Shown: positions 29,832-53,574 of the stretch, piece by piece
Layout: each line of letters opens with the position of its first letter
Numbering within the stretch: position 1 is the stretch's first letter
From: Pontederia crassipes
Lineage: Eukaryota; Streptophyta; Magnoliopsida; Commelinales; Pontederiaceae
Length of the DNA: 64,000 nucleotides
Assembly: GCA_030549335.1 (NCBI GenBank)
Contig: CM060187.1
Location: forward strand, 6,386,001 to 6,450,000
Direction: 5' to 3'
Program-made: the position numbers and the translations under genes
Notes under the pieces: model-generated
Told to the model about the DNA's origin: nothing
The model's database searches: none
The model's input: the letters and a program-made list of their open reading frames with translations, nothing else

Positions 29832-29840
29832 CAATCGTTA

Positions 29841-31339
29841 CATCCTTAAACCAATATAATTTTTTTAAATAAACTCATTCCAATTTAATTCTTCTAAACT
29901 TTCCATCTTAACAAAGTTTAGGGTGTGTTTGGATACTGCATGAAAGAAACTGACCTACCCACCCCAAAAATTTAATCAAATTGAAGATCGATTTGAAAAA
30001 AAATTGCAAATTCGGATTTCGATTAAAAACTAGGTTGATTTTTTAGAATAATTAAAATAATCTCCCCTAATCATAAAAATAAGAGGTGGCTCGATCCGAA
30101 CCAAATATATTTTTAAAATATTATAATTAAGATATTACCTCAACTTTCAAATAAATCGTAGTTTTGCATTTTTTACCCATATTTATTACATTAGGCATAT
30201 TGTTGACTTATTATGACGTAGTTAGATATCATCGAGTTATTAATCTATTTTAATAAAGTTAGCATAAAATTGATTATAATATTTTTAAATTATAACGTAA
30301 TAATATGATAGTTTAGTTTATTTACATAAAGAAGTTGAACTTAGAGTTAAATATTAATTTTTAAAACATTATTGCGATGTATTTAATGTCTATTATTTTT
30401 TTAAAAAAATAATATTTTAAATAGGTCCCAACCTGAAAAAAATCGAGATAGGAAAGATCAATTTTTTCTTTGAAAATAATTTTAGGGCGATCTTTTATAC
30501 TTTAAAAAATCACCGACCCGAAATCTAAGTGCCGATAATTTTTCGACGAAAAATTCATCCGACCCGAACCACCTTCACCCCTATTGGATATGGTGTTTAG
30601 TGGGGATAGCTTATGTTTAATTAGATTATAGGTGGGCTTAAAAGTTCTACCAATTGTTTGAATGCAGTTTTTAAAAATTTAATTAAGATTTGATGTTCTT
30701 GCTTGATTTAAAATTAAATTCATCTCATTGGTGGTGTTGAAAGGATTAGAAATAATTATTATGATCTTGTCCTTATTTCTTTTCAATCAAATAAAAACAT
30801 AACTTTTTCTTAAGGATTATCAAACTTAATTTTTCCTAACTCATATTATATTTCATAGTCAAATAAAGAATGGATTAAACTAATCCATCCATCTCTTTAA
30901 TTTATATTCATATATAATTTTATAAAATCACATGGCCAGTGATCTGGATCTTTCCAAATAACTTCGATTCATATTACAAATATTTTAATAAAAAAATATC
31001 TGCGGTAAAACTTTATTCTACAAAGTATAACTAAATCAGCTTTACTTGTTCTTGAAGACAACTTTTTCCAAATTGTATAAATTATCATTAGATCAAAATT
31101 TAATGGCACATGTCATTACATCAAAATTATCATTAAACCATGCGGCAGCTTTAATGTTTTATCGGTGACAATATAAACATTTTATTATTTGTTAAATATA
31201 ATATAAATTATTGACTTAGTGGTTAGCTTTTTTTTTTTTCAACGGCATGTCAATTTAAAAAAAAATGTACTAACTTGCACGTTTTTTCAGAACCACTATT
31301 AAATCCATGACATGATTGCTAAAAGAAGTGATTTGTATT
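29841..31339. other. AT-rich intergenic, nothing recognised
   Basis: I see no gene, element end or repeat array in this stretch. Confidence 0.5.
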
Positions 31340-32480
31340 AGTTTTAAAAATAGGGAAATGTTTAAAAAATTGACATGTGGCACTAACAATCTCTTTAAAA
31401 AAATTAAAATATACTTTTACTTTACTTCCAAATATACCCTTACACGTCAAATCTACTCATCTTTCTTTAATTTATCTTTTCACGCACACACCTTTCTTCT
31501 TTATCTTTCTCTCTCTTCTTTAATCTCACGTTCCTCTTTTTTTTTTTCCATCTGATGTCCACACCTTTTGCCATTAGAATAAGTTATAGAAATATAAATC
31601 CATTTATTTAAGATTATTTACTGTAAAATTTTGTAATTCATATTTTTATTTGCATAAGCACCACTACGTTGTTATTTGAATACTTTACTTACAGTGAAAT
31701 GTTACTACTATTTTTATGTCATGGGCATTTTTTTCCTGAATAATTGGTTTTATTATTAATGAATTTGGTCTTAATAAAATACCCTAGCTAGGTGAGTTTT
31801 CTTATTCATTATGGATATAAATAATTAGATATATTCCTTGTATAATGTTTTATCCACAATAATGTCATTTTAATTTTTTTTGCGATGCTTTTCTATACAA
31901 GTCAATGAAGTAAGATCTAATGGACCATTGAGTTAGGAAATATATCTACCAATTTATATTTGAATTAAAAATTGTTAGTTTTATGATACTCTTTTAACTT
32001 TTGATGAAAGAATAATTAATTTTTTGAAAAATGTATAGAATTTGTTTTCAACAATATATATACCGATTTAGCTAATTATTATTTTATAACTTCATTATTT
32101 TTTTTGGTATTTAGTAATTTTCCATTGGTATAATAACATGAAAAAAATCGCAATAAATAAAGGCAAGTATGAAAAAAAAAGAAGGCTACATATCGATACA
32201 TGGTACAAAAGAAAACCACAATAGATTAAAGCTTCGTTAAAAATATTTAAAAATAATATAATGGACAAAACAAAGCATGGTAAATGAAGAGAAAAAAATA
32301 TTTAAAGTGATATATTAAATGAGGCAGCATAAAAATTAATATTTAAGATGAAAGATAAGTTGGATGGAATTCACCTGGGGGAGAGAGATAAGGGCATATT
32401 AGGAAGTAAAACTGAAGTATATTTCAATCTTTTAAAAAGACAACATGCTTGCCACTTGTCAGTTGTAAAATTTTAGGACG
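31340..32480. mobile_element. Long inverted-repeat element
   Basis: The arms at about 31,363-31,445 and 32,388-32,470 are inverted relatives. The left arm has gacatgtggcactaac, tactttacttccaaatatac and ccctta. The right arm has taagggcatattaggaagta, tatatttcaatc and tgccacttgtcag. The interior is AT-rich and non-coding. Long inverted arms suit a decayed MULE-like or foldback transposon. The exact ends and target-site duplication are not resolved. Confidence 0.45.
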
Positions 32481-33294
32481 ATTATTAAGCACATAAGTTT
32501 AGGGGCTATAACATTCCTTTTAAAAATAATGCAATATATATACCTTTATGTGGTGTTTTAAAGTTCTAATTCCTTCAAATTTTGCGTTAGGTGGTGTTTT
32601 AAAGTTCTACTTCTTTCAAGATTTACGTATTAGTTCGGAATGTGTTTAACATAATTGTGAAAAAGTAAAAAGTTGATTTGATATGAAAAATTAATGTGAT
32701 AAATTAATTTTAGTAAATATTTGAATTAATATAAGAATTATAAATATAAAATATATTCTTATTAAGTAATCAACATAGAGTATATTTATGTTAATATTTA
32801 AAAATAATATATTATTTTAATATAATAAATAATATTTATAAAACTAGATTTAATAAAATATTTTCTCGAATGATAAATCATAAATAATATTAAAGTAATT
32901 ATTTTATGATAATTATGTTGCATTTAATAAATAAATTATTTTATTAAATCTAATGAAGAGAGAGAAAATAGATTTGAAAAAAGTCACAAAAAAGAGCTCC
33001 TACAATGCTCTCGGTTAGTAAAAATGATGAATTAGCGATAAAATTTAAAGATGCCCTCCCTCTTTTCGAAGTCAAAGACAGACCGTCCTCCCCCTCTCAC
33101 ACTGGGAGGGGACAACATATAATAATAAAAGAATATAAAAGATAAAGTTCCAGTCAAATTTTTATAACAATACGAAAAAAGATAGAACAATATATAACAC
33201 GTCACAATATTTATGTCCTATCACAAATTAAAATATTTATGTCCTATCACAAATTAAAATATAACACGTCACTCCTTTAAATCAGAAAAATAAT
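32481..33294. other. Intergenic with a degenerate MITE copy
   Basis: Positions about 32,620-32,995 follow, with many differences, the reverse-orientation MITE text seen at 10,810-11,200 (tattagttcggaatgtgttt, then gtgaaaaagt and an AT core, then gaagagagag). The rest, including the small repeat tttatgtcctatcacaaatt (33,211-33,230, repeated from 33,237), shows no gene. Confidence 0.4.
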
Positions 33295-34646
33295 CTATAA
33301 GCGAGTCCATAGTAAATTTCTCAACAATTTTTTTTCAATATAAACTAGTGAACAATCTGACAAAAAATCATCTTCTATCTTGTTTTGAAGCTTGTTTTTA
33401 ATTATCTTCATCGTTGAAAAAGATCGATCGGTAGTTGCTGTGAAAATTGGAAGGATAAGAATAAGTGTTATCACTATGTATATAAGAGGATAAATATAAC
33501 ACTTTCTTATTTTCACTAACCATAAATATAATTATGAGATACTCATCAATTTCTCAAAGTCTGTATGAAATCTAATATGATTAAAATGTTCAAGTTGCAT
33601 TCTCAAATGTATCATGTATCTCATGCTCAACAAAATCCAGAGGGTAGAACTTTTGTACCAATTGATAATGTCATCGATTTTGAATGATGAATGCATATTT
33701 TTTGGATCCAATGCTGAACTAAGAACAAGTAGCTCCACAATGTGATCATTAAACTTATTGTTCAATTCCTGCAACTTAGAGTCAATTATTGTATTGAAAA
33801 TGTCAATTTTGTAATGATGCTCTAATGTAATATTGTTTTGTTGATGGCGAGCCCTTCCTTTTCTTGAAACATAAGGTGTGTCCTTATCCGGAATAAGAAT
33901 ATTAATTGATCTGCAATGCTTCTTCACCGCATTTAGTAATTTATTCCACCCGTCATATCTTAATTCTTGAATGAGTGCTTTCGTAGATGAAACAAGATCC
34001 ATCGCATTCAAAATATCTTGAGATTGACTTTGTAAACTTTGACATAATGAATTCGAAATCTCCAAAACATTTTTCATGAGATGCAAATTAAAGACAAACT
34101 CAAAGGATGTTATTGCCTCATAAACTGCATCTGCTTCTGCGCGTTGAGATGAAGTAGTTCCATCTTCAATAATGTTTATCAAAATTTCACATGTTGTACT
34201 AAACATTTTAATCAAGTTAGACATTGATCCAAGTGTGAACTCCAACGAGTGTCTCCAGGTCTTTGTAAAGTACATGTATGATTTAGTCCTTTTCCACTTT
34301 CAAGCTCATCTATAAAAAGTAAATAAACAATATTTGCAGTATGGGCAATTTTGAATTGATCATTACGCTTGCATGAAGTAGTGACTATATTGCTAATAGA
34401 ACTTAACTTAGCAAAGAAATTATGAATGATGATTACATTTTTTGAAGCTAGCTAATGCTAATGGTAAGCGATGTGCCATACAATGAACATAATAAGCATA
34501 ATGACAAATGCTTAAAATTAAAGTTTGCAATCCATTCCACTCACCTCTCATATTGCTTGCACTATCATAGCCTTGTCCTTTGATATTTTGAACATCAAGC
34601 TTATATTGTCAAAGCACAAAAAATAGTTCTTCCTTTAATGTTGATG
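33295..34646 (-). pseudogene. hAT transposase remnant, C-terminal half (TTF/ZMYM1-like)
   Basis: Minus-strand frames match the zinc-finger MYM-type/TTF hAT transposase family of plants. In sense order there is TSTLKEEL at the break, then QNIKGQGYDSASNMRGEWNG and YYVHCMAHRLPLALA (about 34,645-34,440). The 247-codon frame 34,275-33,532 contains LGSMSNLIKMFSTTCEIL and LSSALDPKN, and the C-terminal dimerisation stretch TATTDRSFSTMKIIKNKL lies in 33,516-33,295. Internal stops and frame changes show it is dead. The N-terminal half (zinc finger and first part of the catalytic domain) is absent here but present at 48,452-49,001 on the other strand. Confidence 0.85.
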
Positions 34647-34876
34647 TATATGGTATTGCTCATCACTCGACACACTTCGAGACCCACTTGCGACATGTGT
34701 CATGGGGTGGATTTTAGGAGCGTTACCGTGTAATATCAGTCCTCCATACCTTCAGGAACTTAAATATAGTGAAAGCCCACCTACCATTAATTTTATGTAA
34801 GTGTCAAGTTCATAAAAATAGCCTACAAGTGTATCATAAAGCATAACATATCAATAATACATTATAATATGAATGG

Positions 34877-34929
<53 letters not shown>

Positions 34930-35184
34930 TAGGAAATTTTCATTTTTATTGCATTATTTTATCATAATGTACACTATCTAAAATTAGTGACTTTGAACTC
35001 AAATGTAAGAACGTTCACGGGTCATTTTTATATAAATTTGCATTTATATTTTAATAAAATATATTTACTTAAATAATGAAAATACTTTTTTATTATTTAA
35101 TCATTTTATGTATTTTAAGAAATTTATTTTTATATATTTGAATTTTTAATTTACCTTATAGAAAATTAATTGTACACCTTTGCA
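34647..35184. repeat. Intergenic with an (AT)n microsatellite
   Basis: A pure AT dinucleotide run of about 48 bases lies at 34,879-34,926. Position 34,647 is the edge of the broken hAT element. The rest of the stretch is unclassified. Confidence 0.7.
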
Positions 35185-35816
35185 ATTGTGTAGGATATTA
35201 TCCGCTTTAAGCTTCGACCTGCACGGTTTTGCTAAAACGCGTCCCACTAAACCAAGATCATGTTCTCATATGTACCCAGCATCTCTTCTGTGACTTATGC
35301 ATGTGGGACTAATCCAAGGCATGCTTATGCACCCTTTCCCCCTTAGGGGACTCAACGTCTTCGTTGGGTGATCGCATCTCACCATGCACAGAGGCTCACA
35401 CGGAATGGCTCTGATACCATATGTAAAATCCTTTCACTTGCATAAGATATTGCTCGTTTTGGACCTCGACCTGTGCGGTTTTATCAAACCACGTCCTACC
35501 AAGCCAAGTCCTTATTCCCCTATATACCCAACATCTCTTCCATGACTTATGCATGTGGGACTAATTCAATGCATGTCTTATGCACTCTTCCCTCCTTAGG
35601 GGACTCAATGTCCTCATTGAGTGATTGCACCTCACCATGCACACAAGTCCACGCGGAGTGGCTTTGATACCATATGTATATAAGTCACGAGAGAGAAGCT
35701 GGGTATATATGAAAATAATGCCTTAGCTTGGCAGGACGTATTTTGATAAAAGCGTGCAGGCCGGAGGCCCAAAGCGGATAATATCCTATGCTAGTGCAAG
35801 AGTGTTACATTCATAA
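35185..35816 (-). mobile_element. Tandem TRIM-like LTR fossil with an inverted third LTR
   Basis: On the minus strand there are two LTR-like blocks and two spacers, each spacer headed by the primer-binding motif (reverse complements ggctctgataccatatg at 35,407-35,423 and ggctttgataccatatg at 35,660-35,676). A third LTR-like block (about 35,677-35,816) lies in the opposite orientation and ends gtgcaagagtgttaca. The spacers share a ggggactcaa(c/t)gtc word. The LTR-spacer-LTR-spacer order suggests recombination between units. Non-coding and old. Confidence 0.5.
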
Positions 35817-36369
35817 CTAATTTTAAGTAAAAAATATTAGGTCATGAAGTCGGGTTGACTTATGTTGGGATTAATTTCAAATTGACCTTGACCTGGTCAC
35901 CAACTCATCCTAAGATGAGTTGGGTGGGGTCGGATTTTTCAATCCCCAATTGTATTAATATTTAATGCAATTAATAATAACAACAATAATTTTCATATAT
36001 TCATGCTATATATTTAGTATTTTAAAAAAAAATCAATTAATCTTTGGTGAGTGTATTCCATCCATTGATTACTTAGCTTGCCCTTGATACCATATGGTCG
36101 GCCAAAGTTGGCCGCACTTGAACCATTTAGATTCTCAAAGACATCAAAATTATTACACATCTATGGTTCATAACAATAAATTCATTTATTAAGGAACTAA
36201 GCTTAAATTTAATGTGTCATTTCAATACAATCTTATATTTTACCGTACAAGTCAATATGCGATTTGACATGTAAACATGGCAATCATTCATATCACCACC
36301 ATATCATAGCAACATCACTATAACAAATACTTACCATGACGCATATAGTTAGAACATATAAGAAAGGTT
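35817..36369. other. Intergenic, nothing recognised
   Basis: AT-rich sequence with one GC-richer patch (35,850-35,950, containing gacttatgttggg and gggtggggtcgg). No gene or element is identified. Confidence 0.45.
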
Positions 36370-36785
36370 GCATTAGGCATGTATTGGATTAGTCTCACAT
36401 GCACAAGTTACGAGAAAGATGTTGAATATATATGTAAACATAGTTTTGACTTGTTAGGATGCATTTTAATAAAATCGTGCGGGCCAAAGCCCAAAGCAGA
36501 TAATATCCTACGCAGGTGTAAGGATGTTACATATGATATCAGAGTCACTCCGTGTGAGCCTCTGTGCATGATGGGTGTGATCACTTGACAAGAACACATT
36601 GAGTCCCCTTGGGGCGGAAGGGTACATGAGGCATGCCTTGGATTAGTCCCACATGCACGTCATATTAGAGATGTTGGATCTATATGTGAGCATAATCTTA
36701 ATTTGATAAGATGCGTTCTAGTAAAATCGTGGGCCGAGGTTCAAAACGGATAATATCCTTCACAAGTGCAAAGATATTACATATA
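36370..36785 (+). mobile_element. TRIM-like LTR unit (plus)
   Basis: This is the clearest unit of the family. A first LTR (about 36,376-36,530) ends aaggatgttaca. The motif tgatatcagagtc (36,534-36,546) then matches the tRNA-Met primer-binding site with small changes. A ~90-base spacer follows, then a second LTR to about 36,778. The two LTRs share cacatgcac, gatgttg, gataagatgcgtt-type and cggataatatcct-type words. The unit is ~415 bp with no coding. Visible differences between the LTRs indicate age. Confidence 0.55.
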
Positions 36786-37489
36786 ATATAACATTTCTTG
36801 AAGTTGCACATTAATTTATAAGTAGAAAAATTACAAACAATATATGAGCATGTGCCCACAAGTCATGACTTGGGATTTTCACGGCCCCTGATACACAGTG
36901 GTGAAATTTAGTTCTCACATAGTGTAAGAGTTGGTCGTAGTACCATTCACAAAACTAATGTTGATTTTCCATTCTGAGGTTATGGCTCATGATGTGGTTG
37001 TCATGACACATGAATTCATAATTTCATGCTATATTGGTTATGACATGAGCAATGACTTTATATTTTTCATTTGTTTGTTCATAACTCATGACCCTGTAAA
37101 CATGACATTAGCAGTGACTTCATAGTTTGCTATTAGGGCATAGTTATGATCATGATAGAATGGCTTCATTTGGACAATTAAATTTCATGTTCTATGATAT
37201 GTTGTTACGATTTGTAAAATTTTGAGTATACTTTCAAAGTGGTTGATTTTTTTTCTTCTTCTTCTATCAATTTAGAGTTCATATGCCACAATTTTTTATC
37301 ATTGTAAATATTTTTTGGAAACATAAATCACTAATTGACATTCATAATAACACAAGATAAGGTAATCAATACTAATTCCATATAAATCTTAAATCTTATA
37401 AGAGCATTAATATTTTATCATGTCAGTAGAATACACCATTAAAAGTTGGAACCATTCCAATCCTGCTGCCAGAAGGCCAGATTGGGAAA
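36786..37489. other. Intergenic, nothing recognised
   Basis: AT-rich sequence without supported features; catgac/catgat words are frequent at 36,980-37,160. Confidence 0.45.
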
Positions 37490-37660
37490 AAATACGACAG
37501 TTGAGAGAGAGGGAGAGGGAGGTCGGAGTCGGGATTGAGGTCACCGAAGCCGAAAGAGAGAGGGAGAGGGAGAGGAGGAGAGAGAATATGACAGAGGGAG
37601 GGATATGAGGAGAGAGAGGGGAGAGAGTTATAGGGAGAGAGAGGGAAACTTGGGTAGGAA
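37490..37660. repeat. Purine-rich GA tract
   Basis: About 160 bases are almost all purine on the plus strand (gagagagggagaggg type), interrupted near 37,530-37,550. The overlapping open frames on both strands are compositional. Such tracts can form triplex DNA or bind GAGA-type factors in plants; neither is shown here. Confidence 0.7.
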
Positions 37661-37679
37661 AAAATATGAGTTTCTGATA

Positions 37680-39600
37680 GGTCGATCCGTCGATAATATC
37701 GAAACCCTGAACCATCAATAATAGTAGTATTAAATTATTAATCATTTGTTTTATGTTCTATTATATGTATAATATTATAATAATAATTTTGATGGGTCTA
37801 CTCTTCGGTAGTACAGATGGATTACACCAAAGGTCTAACCCGTCTGTAATAATGATAGTGTGTTTTATGTTATATTATATATATAATATTATAATAATAG
37901 TTCTGACGAGTCTACTCTTTAGTAGTACCAACTGAATTTCAATTCATTGGTACTACCGAAGGCCTAACCCGTCGGTAATATTAATATTAAACTATTAATA
38001 ATGTTTTTATGTTATATTATATATAATATTAGAATAATAATTCATAATAATTAAAAATAATAAGAATAAATAACACTATAAATCGATATTTTTATTAATT
38101 ATTGGTTAAAAAATTATATGTATAAATGATGTGACATATATCTTTGACATTTAAAAAGAAAAATAAAAATTTATCTTAATTGGGCTCAAGGTGAATTCGT
38201 TGTTTAAAATTATTTTATAATTCTGAAAATAATACAGTTTTCTTAAAATTATTAATTTTATTATACATGTACTTTGTTTTTTTATAAACAATTTTATCCA
38301 TATTTGTTTTTTATTTTTAATAAATATTTCTTGTAATAAGATAGTAGAGATTAAATCGACATTTCACAATTAATAAAAAGTAACTTGATAGAATTTTGAA
38401 TAAAATTGATTGAAAGAAAATTAGATTTATAAATTTATAATTAGTAGAGAAATTTATAGCTAATTATATAATGTTAATGTATATGTAATACTAATCTTAA
38501 TCAATATGTGTATATGCTAACAATATTATATATCTTAATATTATCCTAAGACACATATCTTAATCTTAATCTTGATTAAGTCTTATCCTAATCTTTTTTT
38601 CTTTAAGATGTTTAAATTGTGTTGAAGACTCATCATAATCTTATGTCATTAATTGATATAGAATTTGAAGGGTCGTTGTAACTTTATGTTCTTACTTTTC
38701 ATAATGAATTATAGTTAAATTATTGTTACGGTGTACACATACTCTTTTGATATAGATATAGATATAGATAATATATATTATATTATGAATTATAGTTAAA
38801 TAATGATTAACTTTTTATAATTCGCAAATGACCCTATAAAAGTATACAAGAGTACATATTATAAAAGACACATATATCTTAATATTATATATCTTTATTT
38901 CATAATGTTAATGTATATATAGTACTAATATTAATCAATATGTGTATATACTAATAATATTATATATCTTAATATTATGATTAGATATAATTAGATAAAG
39001 AATAAGTGAATTATTAGAACTTAGAATACTTATAATTCACCATTTTAAAACATTTTTTTTTAAAAAATATTTTTTATGAATAAGATTATAATGATAAAAG
39101 ATATATATTTTGTGAATCCAAGATGTAATCCAAAATTTATACTTATGATTAAAATTAGTTATATTACGATTAAAATTAGTTATATCTTCAATAGGAAGTT
39201 AACATATTTTAATTTTATTAAAATTTATCTATTTTATATTGTAAATTTATTTATAATCTATATTCTATATCTATAAATATATTAAAAGAAAAATGAGTAG
39301 AAAGATAAATTATTAAAGACAATTATGAGAAAATAAAAAATAATGATAATTTATTTAATATATTATTTTATTAATGCATCAAGAAAAGAATAAAAGTAAA
39401 TGTAGGAAGGGAAATGTGTATTATATTATATTATAAATATTAATAATAATATATTATTTTAATTATCGACGGGCCTAGTCTTTAAAATTATCGACGAAAT
39501 TAAATCCGTCGATAATTTCGAATGCTAGACTCGTCGTAATTTTAATAATAAAATATTAGACATATATTTATATTATATTACATATATAATATTGTTAGGA
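37680..39600. mobile_element. CACTA-like subterminal repeat field
   Basis: At 37,745-38,040 a ~115-bp unit (tttatgttatattatatat..., then tctactcttnagtagtac and taacccgtc(g/t)gtaat) repeats two and a half times. At 39,466-39,540 related words occur inverted (attatcgacgggcctag, tccgtcgataat). Repeats of the cgtcggtaa type near both ends are typical of CACTA elements, but I found no CACTACAAGAAA terminus and no transposase. The centre (38,050-39,460) is AT-rich with nothing recognised. A non-autonomous or decayed CACTA is the best guess. Confidence 0.3.
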
Positions 39601-39774
39601 TTATAGAGCCTTTTTTGCAATCTATTTCCTCTACTTATTTTTCATAAGTGCTCCTTCAAACTTTCTCTTTAAGAGCTTTCATCCCTTAGAAATAACACGT
39701 TTCAAATCCTAACACCTTTGTGAAGAAGAAACTGAAATGAGTCTTATGGTCTAAGGAGAACAAATAAAGATGAA

Positions 39775-40423
39775 GGGCCTGTTTGTCAATTGGAACTAGG
39801 TTCCGCCTAGTTCCAGTTAGTTCCGTCAAACGTCTTATCGTTTGTTTAACTGGAACTCGAAATGGAACGGCGTTCCAAAAAAAAGTCACGTGACCTTTTT
39901 TGCTTAACTTGGTTCCGCCAAAAGCACTAAAGCGCCGCAATTTTTTTTTGCTTGAGTTGACGTGTTGCTTTTTTTATAACTTTATTTATTCTTTTTTTTC
40001 TTTCTTTATTTTCTCTCTCATACATATTATGTTATAAAATAATTTATTTATTAAATATAAATTATTTATTATAATATTTTAATAAAATATTATTTTTTAC
40101 TTGTTATTTCATTAAATTTTTGAATATTTTACTATATATATTTTATTAAAAAATTGTTTTTTGATACTTAAATAATATTTTTTGACGAAATGTTTTTAAA
40201 AAAATTTTAATTTTTAATTTCGTTTTTATTTATTAACAATATTTTATTTTATATTTATAATATCAATTATTATTTCAAAACCCAACAAAAAATTAACCTA
40301 TCACATCAACTTTTTCCTATCACATCAACTACCTTATTTCTCATCATCAAATTCTACTTCATCCAAACAGAACTAGAACTACGAAAATTTGATGGAACGT
40401 CTCATTCATGTTGCCAAACGGCC
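39775..40423 (+). mobile_element. MITE-like element (plus), near-complete copy
   Basis: It starts GGGCCTGTTTGTCAATTGG and ends TTGCCAAACGGCC, giving imperfect inverted termini. Inside it carries the family signature: ggaactaggttccgcctag, gtcacgtgacc, the AT core, then cctatcacatcaact and gaactagaac. It lies about 600 bp upstream of the bZIP start codon. No clear target duplication beyond three bases. Confidence 0.6.
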
Positions 40424-40509
40424 TGAAAGATTTTTTGTTTTATAATTTTTTTGAACTTTTATATATTACACGGACGCAATTATTCTAATATTGGAATTAC
40501 TTATGTTAC

Positions 40510-41032
40510 ATATTTTGCTCTCCTGTAGTCGCCCTCGCTAAGCAACCAGCAAAAAGTCTCGGGGCTCTCGGCTGCACACCTCCGAGCACCACACACGAAC
40601 GTGGTCCTCCCGGCGCCGCCCGCCGAACGCCTTCGACGCGGACTGGACGCGCGTCCCCTAATGCGCGCAACGCTGCGCAGAGGATCACAGCTCGATCCCG
40701 GGAGGAAGGCGTACGTGGAAGCAGATAGCCGACGTCCCCCTTTTTGCCTCCTCGGCTTTTCCCGGCGGCAGCTTTAAAAGTCCTCCAAAGCAAACACTGA
40801 ACCGAAAAGGAGGGCGGACGGTGCGGATCCAAATCGACCTTCCATTATCTCACCACCTTTTGCTTTTCGTCTTTTTTAGCTTTCCGGACGTCGTGTTCCG
40901 GACAGAGAAAGCGGTGGTCATGGCGAAAGGAGACGAACAAATAAAGACGAGCGGTCGTGGGAACACCACTCGGAGGCAGGAAACCGCGAGGTGGTAGCGG
41001 TACGCTGAGGAGGAAGAGACGGAGGAGGAGAG
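40510..41032 (+). promoter_or_regulatory. GC-rich promoter and 5' UTR of the bZIP gene
   Basis: Base composition jumps to GC-rich at about 40,510. A TATA-like tttaaaag lies at 40,773-40,780, so transcription could start near 40,805-40,815, giving a leader of about 220 bases. A leader ATG at 40,920 opens an overlapping reading frame whose role is unknown. The 108-codon minus-strand frame at 40,506-40,832 is Arg/Ala/Gly-rich and is judged a shadow of GC composition. Confidence 0.4.
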
Positions 41033-44000
41033 ATGAAGAAGAGCCCGTCGGACTTGGTTCTGGAGGAGTTCCTGCGGTCGGACGACGACGACGTCAGCGG
41101 AGGCTACGGCAGTCCGGCGACGCTGGATGAGTTTCTCAACCCGGGAGCTTTGGGTTTTGGGTTCGGCGATCGGGTAATCAAGTCGTCTGCTTCTACTTCT
41201 TCTTCTCCTCCTCCTCCAGTTTTCTCTGATGATGGGTCATCTGGAATGTAATGGTATACGTCAGGAGGGTATTTTGGGCGGAAGCCAGACGTGGTCGCAG
41301 ACCGTGCAGATGACGACCATGCAGTCCAGCGTTTCTGCAACAGTGGAGTACGCCCAGTCCTCTGCGTGTGGTACGTAAATTGTTTATATACAGCTATGAT
41401 TCTTGGCAAATCTCAACATTGCAATCTTGTTTTCTCTCTTGCAATATGAATTGATGATCCATGTGGCCGCATGTACCAAGTTTTACTATATGCTTTTTTT
41501 CTTGGGTTTGGATTTGGAACGACCAGTTGGGACTCCAACTTCGGCTCATAAGCCGAAAACCAGAGACGGTGGACTGGCACTTGGAGGAACAAGCGGCTCC
41601 GAGCAGTCGGACGATGATGAGTCCATGGAAACAGAGGGAGGTCCCTGCGAGCAGAGCAAAAATGTCAACGACCTCAAGCGCATGCGAAGGTACATAAAAA
41701 ATGTGCAGTCATTTGCATCTCTCTTGTTAGCTTTCATTTGAAGGGGGATCGGACGTTGCTATCAATACTCCATTCTCTTAGCTTCGGCGGTACTGTGGAT
41801 CCAGTCACAACTTTTCTAGATTTGTTTTCTAAGACACAAAAACAGCAAACATATCAAAAAAGGTCACTGAAATCCCAGAGGATTTTTGTGGCTTCGGTCA
41901 TGTGCTCATGATAATCAGTTTTGAGGACAACTATGGTAAGAACTTAAACATCTTTCAATAATTGTGGTTGGTGTGATTTAAGACCTTGTTCCAAAATTTC
42001 GAATGCAATGTTGAAACAAAATGTTCTTCTTCTATCAATAGTTTTATCAGAAAAAGGGTATATAATGTATCACAAGAGTAAACAAATAATAGTTTCACAA
42101 AAATAGACCAAAGTAATATGATCAGTATAAAGAATGACAAAAAAGAATACGGATGACTATTGAATGACAATAAGATGGACAATATTGCAAAAACCTCATT
42201 TGATGTGAATAGCTCTCATGAGCACATTCACACTCATTAGTGGTCTACCTACTTATCTATGTGTGCGACTTCTAAAGCCTATATGGATGAAAGAAGAACT
42301 CCAAAGTTCCACCTTCCACATAGTTCACTCCATTAGTAACCATCTTATTTAGGCACTCTAATGTTGGTGACGACGCTATGAGTTTTGAACCTTCAGTATA
42401 ATCACTTTTATGTGTCTAGCTTAAAACTGTTTCCACATCTGGTCATTTCAGTGACTTTTATCCTTCTTAGTAGTACATTTCTCTCTACAGACACTCCTCA
42501 GAGTCAAGCCTACCTCCTAATCTACTACCAACTTAAGAAAGCTTAGTCTCTAAACTTGTTCATAGGTGACCCTACGAACACTCCCGTAGAGTCTCATATG
42601 TTTCATGGTCTTTCTACATTCATTCGCTAATCTCCTGACCTTAGGTGACCCTACGAGCACTCCAATGACTAATTTGTAAGAGAGTTCAAAAAAAAAAAAA
42701 AAAAAACGAGCAAGAAGAGATCAAGAAGTTGAAAAGTAAACTATTGCAGACCCAGTGCTTACATACACACCTGCTTTGATATAGTCATTGACATTGTTAA
42801 GTCTCATCAGTAGGGACAAGACTGACATGTACAGGATGCAACCTCATTACGTCGATCTTGACCTTTATAAAAGTCTAATGTCACTTTGGATCCTTATGCA
42901 AACATTAAGTAATCAGATGGAAAAAGTAATCTCAATCATAATGCAAATTTAGGCAATTGTCTGCTTTGCTTTAACTTTGTAAAAATCTACACGCACAAAC
43001 TAAGAAATCTTGCTACAGAAGAAAATATTAGTACCATAAAAAGGTTAGCCAAGTAATGAGAAGTTTCTAGTGTAACTTTTCTTCCAACATGCAAAATGTT
43101 TATATCCTTTTGCTGTTGCTCCTAAAGAAAAGAATCCAATCGGGAGTCTGCTAGGCGATCAAGAAAGAGGAAACAAGCTCATTTAGCTGATCTTGAGCTG
43201 CAGGTACGTCATGTACACTGTCTCCAAGTTTGTAGAACCCTGATATATGTTTCATTGTTTCATATATCATAAGAAGCATGCATCGATCAAGAAGTTTCCT
43301 TTCTCCATGATAAGAAGAGCAAAATGGGGGAAACTTTTAACTAAAAAACTGGAAGGAGATGAAAAGAGAGAAAACTATTTTTATTTCTGTATTCATTTCC
43401 CATTGGAACTCCGTCTATGTTTTATAGTCGGTCCCAAGTTCGGATAAAGGAGGAGGGTTGTGTTAGGCCCCGACAGCCAGCGTAAAATCTTGTCGAATCT
43501 TATAAACATGAATTATCATAGAATTCAAGCTGGTTGGTGTAAGTGGAGGAAAGCCACTGTAGTTCTTTGTGATAGAAAAATACCCAATAAAGTTAAAGGA
43601 AAATTCTATCGTATTGCTATAAGACCGGCAGTGTTATATGGTAGTGAATGTTGGGCTATGAAGGGACAACATGAACGTAAAGTGGAGGTAGCCGAAATGA
43701 GGATGTTGAGATGAATGTGTGATCATATAAGATTAGGAATGAACATATACGTGAACGAGTCGGAGTGGCTCCTCTTAGTGAGAAAATGGTAGAGAATCGT
43801 TTGAGATGGTTTGGTCATGTTCAGAGAAGACCATTAGATGCGCCAGTAAGAAGAGTAGATCAAATAATCTGGAGTCCGATTAAAGAGGGAGAGGGAGGCC
43901 AAGGCGGACACTTGACGAACTAATAGAGCAAGATATATTGGTGAATAATATACTGAAAGATTTGGTTACTAATAGAACGGAATGACGTCGTATGATACAT

Positions 44001-44854
44001 GTAGCCGACCCCACCTAGTGGGATAAGGCTTTGTTGTTGTTGTTGTATTCATTCCCCATTGACATCCATTTAATACTGAAGTGCCTGAAAAACAACAGGA
44101 GAACAAATTAATTCTGAAAAGCCAACATCATAAATTTGAAGTAACAGTATGACCAAAAACAAGCACAAGTTATTCAGTAAACATTTCATGGTCTTCAGCT
44201 GTGACAATTTTGGTCAGGTTGATCAACTTCGAGGAGAAAATTCATCTTTGTTTAAGCAATTAAGAGATGCCAATCAGGAATTCACTGACGCGTTCACAAA
44301 TAATCGAATTCTCAAATCTGATGTGGGGGCACTTAGAGCTAAGGTACACTGCATTGTTTCTTTTATCATCTTCCAATAAACCCTTTATAGAGAAGCCAGT
44401 ATACCTTTGAGGAACATAACATGCTTAAGAGAGAAATTTATATCATTCCTGATATGTTACTTTCCAGGTAAAATTGGCAGAAGAGATGGTCACAAGAGGG
44501 ACTGCAGCATATAGCATAGATCATCTGTTGCAAAGCCGCTTGGGTTCCCCACAATTTCCAACTAGTAGGCAGCAATGTCGGCCGTCCTCAGAAGTCCTCC
44601 CAGCCCTGGAATTTCAAAGTGACGACACATGCTATGCAGGATCGTCAGCTGCCGAACAGATGCAGCACACAGGGATGCAGAACAATGGCACAAAAAGTGG
44701 GAACATGAGGTCTAGTTTGAACCAACGACTGCCGTTGGGAGGAAGCATTGAGATCCCGCAGGACATGCACAACAGAATGACGAGCGAAATGGCAAACTGC
44801 GGACTGTCTGACACTTGGGCATGGGACTCTGATGCAAGTGCAATCACCAAGTAA
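41033..44854 (+). CDS. bZIP9: Group C bZIP transcription factor, bZIP9-like
   Basis: A nuclear DNA-binding factor of plant bZIP group C, which dimerises with S1 bZIPs on ACGT elements. Modelled exons: 41033-41173, 41220-41370, 41527-41689, 43128-43203, 44218-44343, 44468-44854, totalling 347 residues in frame. The start [14 protein letters not shown] resembles the bZIP9 N-terminus, and the [16 protein letters not shown] junction matches the family. An acidic stretch [15 protein letters not shown] precedes the basic region, residues 156-164 ([10 protein letters not shown]-x7-R). Zipper heptads fall at L174, L181, L188, A195, A202, L209 and L216. The C-terminus runs [13 protein letters not shown] to [14 protein letters not shown]. 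Exon 1 changes frame near 41,174-41,262. A 46-nt GT-AG segment (41,174-41,219) would repair it but is short for a plant intron; a frameshift is the alternative. The intron after exon 4 carries an RTE fragment. Exons 3-6 are certain; exon 1 structure is less so. Confidence 0.88.
41690..43127 (+). other. Large bZIP intron
   Basis: A 1.44-kb intron bounded by AG|GTACAT and CTAAAG|AAAAG; it interrupts the basic-region coding just before residue 152, as in other group C genes. It includes an 18-20 base A run near 42,690 and a short repeated word gtgaccctacga(a/g)cactcc (42,567 and 42,648 regions). No mobile element is clearly identified. Confidence 0.7.
43406..44044 (+). mobile_element. RTE-LINE 3' fragment with SINE-like head, in a bZIP intron
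   Basis: A 639-bp insertion between bZIP exons 4 and 5 is flanked by GTATTCATTTCCCATTG (43,389-43,405) and GTATTCATTCCCCATTG (44,045-44,061), with 16 of 17 bases matching. Its head (ggtcccaagttcggataaag, 43,430-43,449) is the same as that of the SINE at 22,697. From about 43,508 it encodes the RTE C-terminal region: [26 protein letters not shown] and [19 protein letters not shown], then loses frame. It ends gtagccgaccccacctagtg plus a (TTG)n tail. It is inactive. Confidence 0.85.
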
Positions 44855-45475
44855 TTATACCAAGTTCGCTGTTATCCTATAGAACTTTTATATGGTACCA
44901 AACTCATGTAAGGGATTGCGGCTGTTGTCTCTTTTCTTTTATATTTGTATGTTGACCACCCTTACTTTAGTTGTGTCGTAATAATAAATAGACCAGAAAC
45001 GGCCACGTCTGGCAGCTTGTTGTGCTTAGACATTCTAAGCGTATGATGAATACAGAGGGAAATGATAAGTGTATTTTCAATTTCAATGATTATTCGTTTT
45101 GACAGATGAGACTAGACTTAACAATTTCGATGACTAGGATGAATCAAGATGTCTTCTAGAGATATCTTGTCGTTCTCAGCAAAGTGACAGGATAGATCCA
45201 TTTGTACTGAAATATATTGCAGCCAGAAAAACTGAATGTCATTTGTTCTGTGTTTCTAGTGTAGCATTGTGTAGTTAGAAAAGAAAAAACAGAAAAGGAT
45301 CAGTGTTTTCTAATAAACCATGTTAGTTTTATTTTGCCCTTATGGCAAATTCGTTCTAGACAATCATAAGGACGCCTTGTGAAAACAGGAGCAAGGAAGA
45401 TATCATGACACGTTACACTGGAAAATGTCATAACTTTCATCCTCAGGGATGAAGATCAAAAAATGTTTGTACACG
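44855..45475. other. Convergent 3' flanks of the bZIP and reticulon genes
   Basis: The 621-base gap between two convergent stop codons must hold both 3' UTRs. ataataaata-type sequence at 44,981-44,990 could serve polyadenylation of the bZIP transcript. Overlap of the two transcripts is possible. No other feature is seen. Confidence 0.5.
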
Positions 45476-47130
45476 TTACATAGAATCCTGGATGCCCGCT
45501 GAAGAGTCTCTTCTTTTTGGAAACTGCGAACTACACCGAGTTACAACCTCTGAACTTTGAACAAGAATATAGAGACACAACAAACACAGACCTGCAAGAA
45601 AGGATCAAACAATTGACGATTCCTAAATGAGTATTTTTAAAGTACTAGAGCTAAAAAGATAATGGAGAACAAGTTTTCATCATATTGTTTTAACAAACCA
45701 TGAGTAAGATTTCTAATTATGATTCAAAGGCGGACAAGAAGAAACATGAATCTTGAGAACATTTACCAGCATATGCAATTGTAGCGCCTGAAGCCACTCG
45801 GCCCAAAGCTGCCAACAAGTAGAGAGTTATAATGACCTGGGAATTTTAGAACGGTTTAGAACAGTAATCAGTGTAACCATATTCAAAGAGATGCAATGAC
45901 TATTACACATTCTTAGACAGTGGATGTTATGTTGTTCCACCTCAAGTTCTTCGCTGTAAGAATTCCGAGTAATCTCAAATGTTTGCACATTGGTTTGAAT
46001 TGACAATAAAACAATAAAAAGATAGAAGAAACCCTGTTAGATCCACTATTATATATGATTATACCAACGGTACCTTAATAAACAGCCGCTTATCATGCCC
46101 TGATGCAGCAACTCTTAGAACAGATTCGGCTGCCCCTACCGTATTCGCCAGGCAAGCAACTACAGCATTAGCCGTGTCCTGAGATATTTGCCACTCAAGA
46201 GGATCCACAGGTACCCTACATAAAAATTAAATGAGAAACATGTAAATTCAGAATGAAGACTGCGTTTTATCAAGAAATTGCAGACAGTGAAATATCATTC
46301 AGCATGAAAGGCATAAATTGTGAAAACAAAAATCGTCAGCAATGACTCATGTACGTGGGAATGTGATCATAGTTCATAAGGGATAGCTTAAACTTTCATC
46401 TTTACTCTTGGAAGAAAGATAGATCTAGATACCAGATGCTACCAGACGATCAGTAAATTTTGAGAAATCCATATCCAGTCTTCTAGAGCTTATTCCATCA
46501 TGATAAACGATCATTTGCAAAGGACAAGCATCACAGAACGACTCTATTTGTCGAATTTTATCTTCATTAGGCACCAATCAATCAGCCATCACATCCTCGT
46601 TCGATTTACTCAGCAAATATCATGCTCAAGATCGATTGCTTGACCTTACAAATCAACAAGGCCTGATGATCTCAAGATTGATACTTTCAACACTGACCGA
46701 GATTTCCATGGATGCCAACCAAAATACTTCAATTTGGCTGATCCAACAGATAAACATAGCAACGATAAAAGAAAGAATCCGAACATTTCCAAGAAATTTT
46801 ATTCACCGGAAGTACCAAAGTTCGGACACCCAGAAACATAAAACCCCAAGAAATTCAAAACAGAGGGAGGAGCGAGGAGGGTTACGAGATGTTCATCTGG
46901 CGGAAGAGTATGCCGAGGATGGCGAGGGAGCAGAGGAGGACGATGAGGACGTCCGCGACGAGGGAGAGGAGGCTCGACTCCCGACAGGCGCAGTGGTAAT
47001 AGACCAGCGTGCCGCACACCAGCAGCACGGCCGGCCGCCCCACCTCCAAGCGCCCCTCCTCCGCTACGTTCGTCGTCGCCGCCGCCGGCTCCTCCATGAG
47101 CGTCTGGCCTCTCGATCTCCGGTTCGCCAA
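45476..47130 (-). CDS. RTNLB22: Reticulon-like protein B22-type, four exons
   Basis: A small endoplasmic-reticulum membrane-shaping protein. Minus-strand exons: 47130-46886, 46215-46074, 45836-45767, 45591-45476, with GT-AG junctions and matching phases, giving 573 nt and 190 residues. The N-terminus MANRRSRGQTLMEE is followed by hydrophobic segments at about 32-50 (VGRPAVLLVCGTLVYYHCA) and 54-76. The family loop follows (FRQMNIS, VPVDPLEWQISQDTANAVVA, ANTVGAAESVLRVAASGHDK), then a second hydrophobic pair (VIITLYLLAALGRVASGATI and LCLLCLYILV). It ends QDSM. The second in-frame ATG (MEEPAA) could be the start instead. Plant reticulons insert hairpins that curve ER tubules. The exon 1 region is GC-rich. 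The B22 assignment comes from memory of family text and B23 is possible. Confidence 0.88.
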
Positions 47131-47854
47131 GAAGACCTCGGACGGTGGTCAGCTTTTACTTCCGTTATGACGGCGGCAGTCGTCCGTTCCGGACTCATCG
47201 GCGTCATCTTTTTCCTTCTCTTTTATTACATTTCTTTCGATGAAGAATGAAAAAGAGAAAGCAAAAAAAGGGAAAATACGAGTCCCTCTCCTCTCCAACT
47301 TTGCTCACGAAAATTAGGATTATTTTTTAAAAACTATTTCCTGAATTATTTATTTTATATTTAATTTTGAATTATTAACATTTCTGTCATTTTCATTTTT
47401 TTCTATTTATGGAAAAATTAAAACATCTTTCCACAAATTGTTCTCTCTTTTGATGTTTAAAATAAAATAAAATATTTTGACAAGTCAACAAAATATCCTT
47501 TTCTAAATATTTTTTATCTTTAATATTTATTATACTATTCTTTCAAAACATTAAAAGAGAGGATAGTTCAAAGAGTATTAATTTTCTTCATAAATAGAAA
47601 AATTATGGAAGGACGAAAATACAATAAAGTTTAGTAACGTCATATAATAAGTTAATAGTTAAAGATTAAATCTGAAAAATTGTTGTGTTCATAAAAGTTT
47701 AAAGAAATAACTTGAAAATTAATATTGCAATTGAAAAAAATTATAAATTGCCGGCATGTAGTCCCGACAAGTTCCACCAAACGATATTATAACATGCCAA
47801 AAACCTATCGTAAAATCTAGTGGCAATTAGGGGGACTTCCGACTATATTGACTT

Positions 47855-47894
<40 letters not shown>

Positions 47895-48451
47895 CTATTT
47901 ATATTAATATGTAATATTATGTTCGTCCACCGCCATCACTCCACAAAGTTGAGCCCATTTTTATCTTACATGGATCATGGTATTTATTTTAATCATAAAT
48001 ATAACAAAAATAGGTTAGAGGTGTCCTTAAAAATCTCATCAGACCTCTCCGTCGTGCAAGAGAAAAAGGTCGTACATGCTATAGTCAACAATCAACACAT
48101 GTGACCTTTTCATTTATGCATTATCTCTCATTATAGTTTAATTGTCTTTACTAATTGACTTGTAAAAAATCTTTTCCTTTTTTGTGAAAATTTCTGCAGC
48201 AAAAGAGAAACTAAATTTTGCATTGATTTTGAAAATTTTCCCAAGAAAAGATCCATCCAACATTACGGTATTAATCATATTTTATTATACTTTTTATTTT
48301 AATGTTTAATGTTAAATTACTAAATTTTATTCTTCTGATTTATTTTTGTTATAATAATCTAAATTAGTAAATTTTTGTATAAATATGAATGTAAAAAATC
48401 ATTAGTCTTTTTTATAATATTATTCTTATTGTATATTCTGTCTTCTTACAG
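47131..48451. other. Upstream DNA of the reticulon gene, with an (AC)(AT)n tract
   Basis: The first ~100 bases should hold the minus-strand promoter and leader; no TATA box is clear. Positions 47,300-47,750 are AT-rich. A short CA run followed by AT dinucleotides lies at 47,856-47,890. The frame at 47,919-48,104 is not recognised. Nothing else is supported. Confidence 0.45.
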
Positions 48452-49001
48452 ATGAAAAAGATCACAATTGATGCTTTTTTTTCAAAAAAAGAAATATCAA
48501 GATATCAAATTTAGAAGAGTAGTCAAATAGGTTGGCGGATCCTCATCATGTGACACATGAAAATAAGTCTACCAAGTATAGAATGGTTGAAATAAATGAA
48601 AATTTTGACATCAACTTATTAGGACGTGATCCAGGTTTATGAAAATAAATATGAGAACATCCCATTGATATGATGAAAGTAAAACATCACAAAGAAAAGA
48701 AAATTTTCGTGAATTGCTTACTTTGATAACATCTTATAATGTTGAAGTAGAGAAAGCTTTAGACAAGGCTCCACAAAATACCTCGTACACTTCACCAAAA
48801 ATTCAAAAAGAAATTATGCAAGTTCTCTCAGTGAAAGTGAAAATACCATTCGAGAAGAAATTGATGATGCAAAATTTTGTATTATAGTTGATGAAGCTCG
48901 AGATGAATCTAAAAAAGAACAAATGTCTATTGTACTAATGTTTGTTGATAAAAATGGATAAGTGAAAGAACGATTTTTCAGACTTGTCCATGTAAAAGAT
49001 A
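48452..49001 (+). pseudogene. hAT transposase remnant, N-terminal half (TTF/ZMYM1-like)
   Basis: It starts MKKITIDAFFSKKE (48,452) as in TTF-type hAT proteins. After decay it shows EVEKALDKAPQNTSYTSPKI (48,743-48,802), then, after a frame change, IREEIDDAKFCIIVDEARDE (48,850-48,909) and KERFFRLVHVKD (48,964-48,999). IVDEARDE carries the first catalytic Asp region of the family. Several stops and at least one frame change show it is dead. It ends at the exact codon where the remnant at 34,646 (minus) begins. Confidence 0.85.
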
Positions 49002-49828
49002 TGTAATAACAACAAGACACAATTATTCATGAGTAGGAAAAACATAATTATACTAGGACATCATCTATGAAAAACACAATGGAAGCATGCTATAATAATG
49101 ATAACATCATAAAATAATAATGGCAGAGGCCCAACATGACACATAATGACTCGTAGTCTATAAGCACAACATAATATCATAAATGTTCGTCATCCAAGAG
49201 GACATGGAGTACATAACAACATAAGTTCATAATATGAGCCCATGGGCTAGTACATAACCACAGTAGATGAAAATATGAAGGACGCGATACTAAGACCATC
49301 GCCATGTTTAATAAGTTGTCACAAGCCCACAACCGGCCCATATAATTCATTCATATTTGCATGAACCCGAATGTAGGAGATGCCAACATCCCATTAGTTG
49401 TATGTAAGGGCCATTAAAAACAATAAAGTTCAGTAAGGCGTAAAACAGTTAATGTCATAAAACCAATTCGCATATCACTAAAGATCATTTGAACAATTTC
49501 AATTCCATTCAATAATCATAATACAATTGTATTAACTTTGGCAGTGTCCAATGCGATATCAATCAATGGTTAGACGATAAATAATTGCATTAACATTTTA
49601 ATGCCCCATAAATAATAATATACCCAATGCTAGCCATATCATGATTTTATAGATTTTTTTTACAAATTTTAGGGTTATCAAGCATTAGACAATGGATTTA
49701 GTGAGGATTCCATATGATTTTGGTACTAGGTGATCCCCGAAGCCATAATGGCTAGCCAAGTCCAGCCACTGTTTGGACCAAAATAAATAATTACCTACGT
49801 CTAGGTCCCATAATTAATCCATTCAAGA

Positions 49829-49869
49829 AGGGGGTTGGGGGTGGGGGGTGGGGGGGGGGGGGGGAGGGG
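49829..49869 (+). repeat. Poly-G tract, G-quadruplex candidate
   Basis: Forty-one bases consist of G runs broken only by TT, T, T and A, including one uninterrupted run of about 15 G. Four or more G-runs satisfy the G-quadruplex pattern on the plus strand. Homopolymer length here may be unreliable in the assembly. Confidence 0.85.
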
Positions 49870-49925
49870 TTGACTAACAATATTGCACATTCAATCAATA
49901 GTTGATTTTAGTCCTATGACTTAAC

Positions 49926-50694
49926 GACTGCATTTGGCAACCGGAATCAGGTGGAACCAGCCCCTTTGGTTCCCCAAACAATATGACACGGCTTGGTTCC
50001 CGAGGCGGAACCAGGGTCACGTGATGCAGGTTCCGCCCAGTTGGATCTCTTTTTTTTTGGCAAACGACGTGACCTTTTTTTCATTTTGCAAACTCTTTTT
50101 TTTCTTTTTAGCTATCTTAGAACTAGGCCGCAATAAATGCGGCGGAACCAAGGGCACGTGACCCAGGTCTAGTTTCTACCCAACTAGTTCTCTTTTTTTT
50201 TGGCAAACGACACGACCTTTTTTTTTGGTTTTGCAAACTCTTTGTTTTCTTTTAGTTTTTTCTTCTTTTTAGCTATCTTATATATGATAATTTATTTATT
50301 ATGTGTAAAATATGAATAATAAAGAATTAATATAATAATATTTATTACTTATTATTTCATTAAAAATTTCAATATTTCATTTTAAATATAAATTATTAAA
50401 AAATGTTTTTTTATATTTAAATATTATATTTTAAACAATTTTTAGTATAAAAATTATAAATTATAAATTTATTTTTATTTATTAACAATATTATATTTTG
50501 TATTTACCATATCAATTTTTAATTCAAAATTCACGAAAAATTAGTCCATCACATCTAATTTTTCCTATCATATCACCTCCCTGATTCCTTATCATTAAGT
50601 TCCAATCTATCCAAACACATCTCAAACTAATCTATCAAATCGAACTATTCATTAGAACTCGGAGGAACTTTAGTTCCATTTGCCAAACACAGCC
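49926..50694 (+). mobile_element. MITE-like element (plus), long copy
   Basis: Ends GACTGCATTTGGCAA and TTGCCAAACACAGCC are imperfect inverted repeats, flanked by AAC on both sides (49,923-49,925 and 50,695-50,697), compatible with a 3-bp duplication. A short internal duplication repeats the tctttttttttggcaaacga segment (50,046 and 50,190 regions). The AT core and cctatcatatcac words match the other family copies. Confidence 0.6.
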
Positions 50695-51604
50695 AACATG
50701 TATTCCCGAAGTCTAAGTGCATCAATCAATAACATGTGCAACCAAAACATGACAATCATTCAATAATAGCATGATAAGGACTAACTTAATTAACATGGAT
50801 GGAAATATAGCATAACATAGTCTAAACATAATAACAATAACACTAAGAGATCACATAATAATTCTTGTAATGAAATCCGAACATAGCAGAATAGCTTCAA
50901 TTTAACCATAATTATATCTTTATAAAATGAATGTAATAAAAAACCTAGATGTCCAGGCCACTACAATTTATGGGGGACACGAAAATGGTTTAAATAGCTA
51001 GAAAATGAGTTAATTAGTAAGAATACGAGTTGCTGGTATTTTCGTAGTGCTGCGCTACGATTTAGATTGATGCGCTACGAGTTGAATGATAAAAATATGA
51101 TAGGCCAGTAGGGAACAGTCATAACACCTCATTCTAAACCTTAAGCACTATATGGTTTACACCGTCGTGCTATGATTTAGTTGCCCATCTATGACCTGCC
51201 CGTAGCGAGGTGACAGAACATGTGAAAAATGGTTTCTTTCTAAGTTTTCTCTTTCCATTCATAATATAATCCATTTCTTCCTCAAGCTTGAGTTCACTAG
51301 TCTAGTTGTCCACAACAAGGATTCCTAGTTAATTTGCCAACATTCACATCATTAAGATTACCAATATGAAATGAGAAGCTAAATGGCAAGATCTCATCCA
51401 AGTATAAGAACCCTAAGCATTCCATAAAAATATCAAAAACATCATCTGTATGAATCAATCATCAGCAAAAGGATTCATTCATGTGATAATAATCCAAGGA
51501 TCAAGATAAAACTCCTAATCCAAGTGTTAGTTGGATTCAAGAGAGGGTTCATCCAATTACATAACTTAAGCCCTAAAAACGTTGTGGTTTCTTCTCCTTC
51601 TAGC

Positions 51605-53574
51605 TATTGGAGCAAAGTTTTTGTACCTTATATAATTATATTTTAATGATACAAACATCGAAAGTAATGAAATTATATTTAAAATGTAAAAAAAGTTTAA
51701 ATATAAATGAGTTACTTCGTGCACTAAACCTTCAATTAATATTTGTATATGTTCCTATGAGAGGTGAATATAAAAGTTATAGATAACTTTCTTATCTCTG
51801 TAGAACATTAAGAATCACCTCGGGACAACCACATAAAACGTTATGTTTAAACAAGTGAAGCTTGAAAAGTTCAAATTGAAGTTGATAGTTTTGTGTACTA
51901 AATTTGCACTTAATATTTGAGTATTCCATCAGGATAAAGAGATTAATACAAAAGTTATATATAATCTTCTTGTCTTTTCATAGAATTAAGAATCACCTCA
52001 TTTGGACAACTGTATAAAATGTTATGCAAAAAATAGTGAAGATCGACAAGTTCTATTTGAAGTTGATATTTTTATGTGCTGAACTTGCATTTAATATTTG
52101 ATTACTTTATCAACAGATTTGGGATAAAAGGTGAGTATGAAAGTTGTAAATAAAGTTGTTAGTTTTTTCATAGAATCAAATATCATCTCATTTGGATACT
52201 GGTATTAAAAGTTATATATAAAATAGTGAATGTCTAAAATGTTTCATTTGAAATAGACAACTTTGTCGTATGAAATATACAAAATCATCTCATTTGGATG
52301 CTCGTATGAAAAGTTGTGCATAAACAAGTAAAGTTATTTAAATTGACAACTTTATGCATTGAACTTTGATTGAATATTTGACTATGATATCATTGGATTT
52401 TCAATGAATGATTAATATCAAATTTGTAGATAATTTTGTTATCTTTCCATAGAATAAAAAATTAACGCATTTCGATAATGGTGTAAAACGTTATGTATAA
52501 AAGAGTGTAGATCTATCAGGCTGTCAATGACAAATGGACGATCGAAATTATATCGGTCGGCTGTGGTGAAAAAGGATGAACGCCTTAAAATGGACGACAA
52601 AAGCTGCTGTCAAAACAACCGCTAATTATAGAGAACAAAGACATTTGTAAATCAAACGATCGAAACTATAACATTTGATCGTTCTGGGCAACAAAAACAA
52701 AAATGTGGAAATCGAACGACCAAAGTCACTGCATGAACGACCGCAGATTACAGAGAGCACGGATATTTCTAAAATGGACAATCGAATCATTTTTGGTCGA
52801 CCGTTATGAGAGCAAAGGCAACGACAATAGTTAAATCCTTTTACGGACTACCATCAACGGATAACTGCGCATAAAAGACAAATCAACAGCTAGTTTGGTT
52901 AATAAAATGGATGACCTAAACAGTAACGGTCGACCATTACTATTCAAAACGGATGACCGAAACTAAAACGGTCGACCGTTTTAGAGGTGACATCACACTT
53001 TTCAAATTGATTTACAACGGCTATATTTTCAAGAGAAGCCTATAAAAGGGATTCAAAAGGCTGAAGGAAGATGATCCAAGCAAGGCAAATCAAGCTTCCT
53101 TTAAGTCCAAAATATTTTTCTTGAGCTTAATCTTGCAATTCATCCCTTCCCTCTTCTAATTGAGAATTAGAGGGAATTATTGTGTTCTTATTTAGAGAGT
53201 TTTGAGAGCTCATTGTAAGAAGAGGTTTGCCTTACCTTTTGAACAAAGAAGAAGACATTGTGATGTAGAAAGGGTTATTCTCTATCTAAAAAAAAAGAGA
53301 AAGCTAGTGAATCTCCGACGGTCTCGAGATCGGGAAGTCGGAGCGGGGACGTAGGCCAAGGTGTGGCCGAATCTCGTCAACAAATTATCGTGCATCTTGT
53401 GCTTATCTTTCTCTCTCCCTCTCCTTCCTACTCTATTATGCATGTGATTTAATTGCTATTGTATTTGTTTAAATATTAACGAATCGATTTTAAGCTTCCG
53501 CAACGATTTGCAAAAAATTGATATTTTCGATTTAAACACCAATTCACCCTCCTCTTGGTGCATTGTGATCCTAC
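51605..53574 (+). repeat. 5' LTR of the copia fossil
   Basis: The repeat of about 1.97 kb starts ATTGGAGCAAAG-like and ends GTGATCCTACA. From about 51,700 it holds five or so diverged units of ~150 bases, each with a gtgtactga(a)ctt-, aatatttga- and catctcatttgga-type core. The next 450 bases carry gaccg/cggtcgaccg words. A tract near 53,310-53,390 (ctcgagatcgggaagtcgga) recurs in the fossil at 4,300-7,640. Confidence 0.8.

Follow-up and report, generated by a model that had tools for sequence, protein, structure and literature searches.

A 14.35-kb inversion in Pontederia crassipes with one breakpoint in a hAT element and the other in a dispersed repeat

Two breaks, one within a hAT element and one within a dispersed repeat (R), probably followed by end joining, almost certainly inverted a 14.35-kb block of contig C5 of Pontederia crassipes. 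The sequence studied, here called the window, is the 64,000-nucleotide stretch at bases 6,386,001–6,450,000 of that contig, in an assembly of 1.13 Gb and 43 contigs; the features discussed are collected in Table 1. Flipping the block restores both ancestral junctions, that is, two unrelated repeats (hAT and R) are restored reciprocally, its collinearity with the homeologous region on contig C6 is reversed, and three homeologous regions have the old gene order. A sequence-only reading had proposed an inversion of about 14.35 kb with breakpoints inside a hAT, from oppositely oriented hAT pieces ending at 34,646 and 49,001; the proposal holds, and is better supported than that reading stated.

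Table 1. Features of the C5 locus, in window coordinates
Feature	Position	Strand	Basis
Pumilio-type (NABP/PUF) gene, fixed reference	17366–22451	+	Pfam NABP 1.4e–12, PUF 1.1e–13; homeologs
Left flank, collinear with C6	29465–33101	+	4 same-direction pieces
hAT (DUF4371-type) C-terminal part, without 3' terminus; outside inversion	33105–34646	-	BLAST to 12 genomic copies; 3' end against other copies
Junction 1, 2-bp microhomology CA/TG common to hAT and R	34645–34646		Comparison of hAT and R copies
Inverted block, with bZIP and reticulon genes inside	34647–49001		Flip restores hAT and repeat-R junctions and collinearity with C6
Repeat R, one end, ~80 bp, dispersed, LTR-like by eye; inside inversion	34647–34726	-	Comparison with genomic R copies
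Stretch reversed relative to C6	35919–47681	-	13 opposite-direction pieces, reversed order, small overlaps
bZIP gene, moved by inversion	41009–44854	+	Pfam bZIP_1 1.4e–7 (43126–43269); homeologs (43126–44851)
Reticulon-like gene, moved by inversion	45753–47148	-	Homeologs
hAT N-terminal part, without 5' terminus; inside inversion	47867–49001 (start approximate)	+	Matches to hAT copies; DUF4371 match 48746–48958
Junction 2, 1-bp microhomology, A at 49,001	49001–49002		Comparison of hAT and R copies
Repeat R, remainder; outside inversion	49002–49935	+	9 genomic copies, 72–80% identity over main stretch
Right flank, collinear again with C6	62602–64000	+	One 86-bp piece in window

The homeologous regions compared lie on contigs C6, C9 and C10 of the same genome rather than in other species. 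Read with the Pumilio-type gene pointing right, all three have the order Pumilio> reticulon> <bZIP, and C5 alone among the four regions has Pumilio> bZIP> <reticulon; since the three agree on the other order, we judge from these sequences that the inverted state is the derived one, on C5. The earlier suggestion that the bZIP and reticulon genes had changed orientation relative to Pumilio is thus borne out, both by 3 of 3 homeologs and by the block alignment with C6. C5 has its close partner in C6, synonymous divergence being about 0.062 across a Pumilio exon of 429 codons and about 0.06 across a bZIP exon of 130 codons. The other two, C9 and C10, stand further off, at 65–78% protein identity in the long exons.

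When the window plus 8 kb of C5 was aligned with 30.9 kb of C6 (E ≤ 1e–10), pieces in the same direction on the left were followed by opposite-direction pieces across the block and then by a return to collinearity on the right, where a further 3.67 kb beyond the window (66,270–69,831) is collinear at 90.7% identity. The remaining four alignment rows (window 4,333–7,662 and 59,817–59,981) all fall on one C6 stretch and are repeat-like. At the same threshold no aligned C5–C6 sequence in collinear order was found at 33,102–35,918 or 47,682–62,601, so the breakpoints are placed by the repeats and not, to the base, by C6. The ~12.7 kb adjoining the right breakpoint (49,936–62,601) has no collinear match within the 30.9 kb of C6, and a single repeat-like one, at 59,817–59,981.

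The two parts of the split hAT match the same genomic hAT copies. Aligned to 12 genomic regions with such copies, a check that the sequence-only reading had suggested, they prove to be joined with a constant interval, the bases matching 49,001 and 34,646 lying exactly 6 bp apart in 11 of the 12; in the twelfth (L029) the C-part match begins 93 bases in, which makes the junction unreadable. The halves had been said to meet with neither gap nor overlap: they do belong to the same element and are contiguous in other copies, but 6 bp (two codons) of the family sequence is missing between them. Identity to the 12 copies is 88.0–95.2% over 48,667–49,001 and 87.5–94.5% over 34,000–34,646. Differing divergence of the two halves had been named as a point to check; instead it runs in parallel across the 12 copies (Spearman 0.73, P = 0.007). 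The flip was also expected to restore one continuous coding stretch, and it does so for alignment but not as an open frame, owing to in-frame stops in the N part, the window copy having decayed.

In Pfam searches the N part gave the DUF4371 match of Table 1 at 1.1e–7 and the C frame of the window (247 aa) matched no family; a related copy, L026, matched DUF4371 at 4.2e–56 and Dimer_Tnp_hAT at 1.5e–8, and the dimerisation domain was seen in this relative only. By eye, the related copies L026 and L027 may show terminal inverted repeats and an 8-bp target duplication. The window copy has lost both termini, and target-site duplication is therefore unusable as a test. Its N part runs out 5' in an AT microsatellite, and its 3' end halts within a few bases of where C6 homology halts (33,101–33,105), which means that the terminus of the hAT itself is gone while hardly any flank is. 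The window copy is also without ~480 bp carried by other copies, at 48,667–48,673, with a 7-bp overlap at the joint; either the window copy has a deletion, or the others carry an insert or an intron. Searching the window with seven hAT copies returned only the known pieces, matches to an apparent nested insert of L028 and one 38-bp match at 37,730. We rejected an intact hAT at the same place on C6: the same seven copies gave, between the C6 flanks, one 42-bp match and two matches to an unshared stretch of L028.

A flip of the block 34,647–49,001 requires that the sequences lying past the hAT at the two junctions once adjoined each other, and these sequences are the two parts of R. The repeat is dispersed, with at least 45 matches to the sequence from 49,002 (best 40 of 385 candidates scored), and the bases that directly precede the R match in genomic copies are those from 34,647 on, reversed. 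Among nine copies chosen by the long part of R (L034–L042), the two parts abut with 0 bp between them in four (L034, L035, L037 and L039) and are at most 8 bp apart in two more (L036 and L040); the short part is weak but correctly placed in L038 (E = 4e–6) and L042 (E = 0.025), and had no match at E ≤ 10 in L041. As a reverse check, nine loci (L044–L052) were selected with the short side of R alone. Five of them match only sequence further in than R; the other four match the short part, and of these L046 has the long part exactly abutting, L047 and L052 have a later part of R roughly as far away as expected, and L050 does not. When the short side was searched against the whole genome (20 of 20 candidates scored), the junctions of the nine long-part copies did not come up from that search alone. 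At the corresponding C6 site, the nine R loci gave only 36- and 50-bp matches, both to sequence upstream of R.

Three of the nine R copies start, by eye, with TGTAAC, a start common in plant LTRs, and on that feature we regard R as putatively LTR-like. Adjacent to its short part, window 34,733–34,857 resembles an inner part of R, reversed relative to the flipped repeat, in 4 of the 9 copies; two or more pieces of R may thus have stood at the old site. We considered this stretch as a substrate for the inversion and rejected it, because in the uninverted arrangement it and R were on one side. In two loci read in the turned direction (L037 and L039, ~853–1371), a tandem pair of ~235 bp lies upstream, and part of it matches R reversed, giving a fold-back shape.

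At the junctions themselves, the microhomology of about three bases (ata) originally read is replaced by 2 bp at one and 1 bp at the other (Table 1), each longer by 1 bp (up to 3 and 2) if the broken copy had the variants of some relatives. With R restored without loss, the hAT is short of 9 bp; with the shared bases assigned to the hAT, the hAT is short of 6 bp and R of 3 bp. No inverted duplication of flanks was found at the junctions when 10-kb stretches were compared, bases there being missing, not doubled. Nor was there any similarity at E ≤ 0.01, in either direction, between 29,647–39,646 and 44,002–54,001, a comparison made with the low-complexity filter on, which very short repeats would escape. 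In view of this lack of similarity, inverted-repeat recombination does not fit, and neither do staggered breaks that would duplicate much of the flanks. End joining typically leaves short microhomology and loses few bases, and the junctions here fit two breaks repaired in that way.

We propose the following order of events. The hAT element and the LTR-like repeat would have inserted on either side of the reticulon–bZIP pair, most simply after the separation of C5 and C6, the alternative being that both were lost from C6. A double-strand break in each of the two elements would later have freed the segment, and end joining with 1–3 bp of microhomology would have put it back reversed, with ~9 bp lost in all; we infer the nature of the breaks and the pathway of repair. 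Because the inversion splits both elements it is later than their insertion, and the original claim that the change followed the hAT insertion stands on the splitting of the hAT itself. That both breaks lie in mobile elements may only reflect the share of such elements in intergenic DNA.

The presence of mobile elements at both breakpoints could instead point to recombination between inverted repeats or to aberrant transposition of the hAT, and hAT-derived elements have been proposed as drivers of inversions in cod (PMC12368964). We consider this highly unlikely: the absence of similar sequence in the two breakpoint regions, within the filter setting given above, speaks against it, as does the hAT breakpoint, which lies ~1.9 kb into a copy 3.45 kb long and is internal, not terminal. 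Published cases allow a comparison. Inversions by ectopic recombination between mobile elements are described for Galileo (PMC2775673) and for hAT-derived MITEs in cod (PMC12368964); the C5 inversion resembles these in having mobile elements at both breakpoints, but they rest on related breakpoint elements, whereas the C5 pair is unrelated. The O4 and O8 inversions of Drosophila subobscura came about by staggered breaks, with inverted duplications at the junctions (PMC5080602). Like them, the C5 breaks were repaired without recombination between repeats; unlike them, the C5 junctions had no inverted duplications that we found. Simple inversions by two breaks and rejoining are termed 'cut-and-paste' in the same paper (PMC5080602), and C5 shares their reciprocal junctions and flanks that are not duplicated, differing from the cases described there in being a 14-kb plant inversion with both breaks within mobile elements. 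In Brassica napus, inversion breakpoints frequently carry mobile elements, most of all of LTR types (PMC12599057); that work is a population survey, whereas C5 offers a single locus with breakpoints placed to a few bases. The literature found on inversions consisted of general papers, and no title among them named this locus.

An assembler or scaffolder might also have placed the segment backwards, an error to which we allow only a very slender chance. Matches to the long bZIP exon came from C5, C6, C9 and C10 only, giving no sign of a second haplotype of the region, and this leaves some room for such an error. Against it, the window has no N runs, the breakpoint regions lack similarity to each other at the threshold given above, and the junctions lie in continuous sequence, where the missing bases and microhomology would suggest repair more than a flipped scaffold. 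Finally, that two unrelated hAT fragments end at the same codon by chance, as might be imagined in so abundant a family (at least 40 matches with part of the C half, for the best 40 of 158 candidates scored), has a negligible probability; the reciprocal junction and the homeologs refute it, given that the same flip also restores R, both parts track the same copies in divergence, and the intervening block is reversed relative to three homeologs.

Both breakpoints of the inversion are inside the hAT and R, and no cut was seen in either the bZIP or the reticulon-like gene. Between the start of the latter and one junction there are ~1.9 kb, and between the first bZIP frame, assigned by eye, and the other junction ~6.4 kb. 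What it swaps is which of the two genes adjoins the Pumilio side. It is conceivable, though we think it decidedly unlikely, that the swapped neighbours or element pieces altered expression of bZIP or reticulon on C5 relative to C6 and that the inversion was retained for that reason. In our judgement it is ordinary in kind, a small inversion bounded by decayed mobile elements, and well resolved. A single genome here yields the old gene order by way of three homeologs, the order of events, and breakpoints narrowed to a few bases by the two split repeats; as a small inversion in a plant consistent with end joining, the locus is a clean example.

The gene assignments differ in strength. One exon of the reticulon-like gene matched Pfam Reticulon at 0.015, under the family cut-off, so the name 'reticulon' is weakly supported. 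The first bZIP exon (from 41,009) was assigned by eye, as was the first Pumilio frame (17,366–18,007), and the limits given for the Pumilio gene are partial. Two open frames in the window look by eye like reverse transcriptase, at 25,897–27,491 (minus strand) and 43,448–43,923 (plus strand), the second of which sits between bZIP exons.
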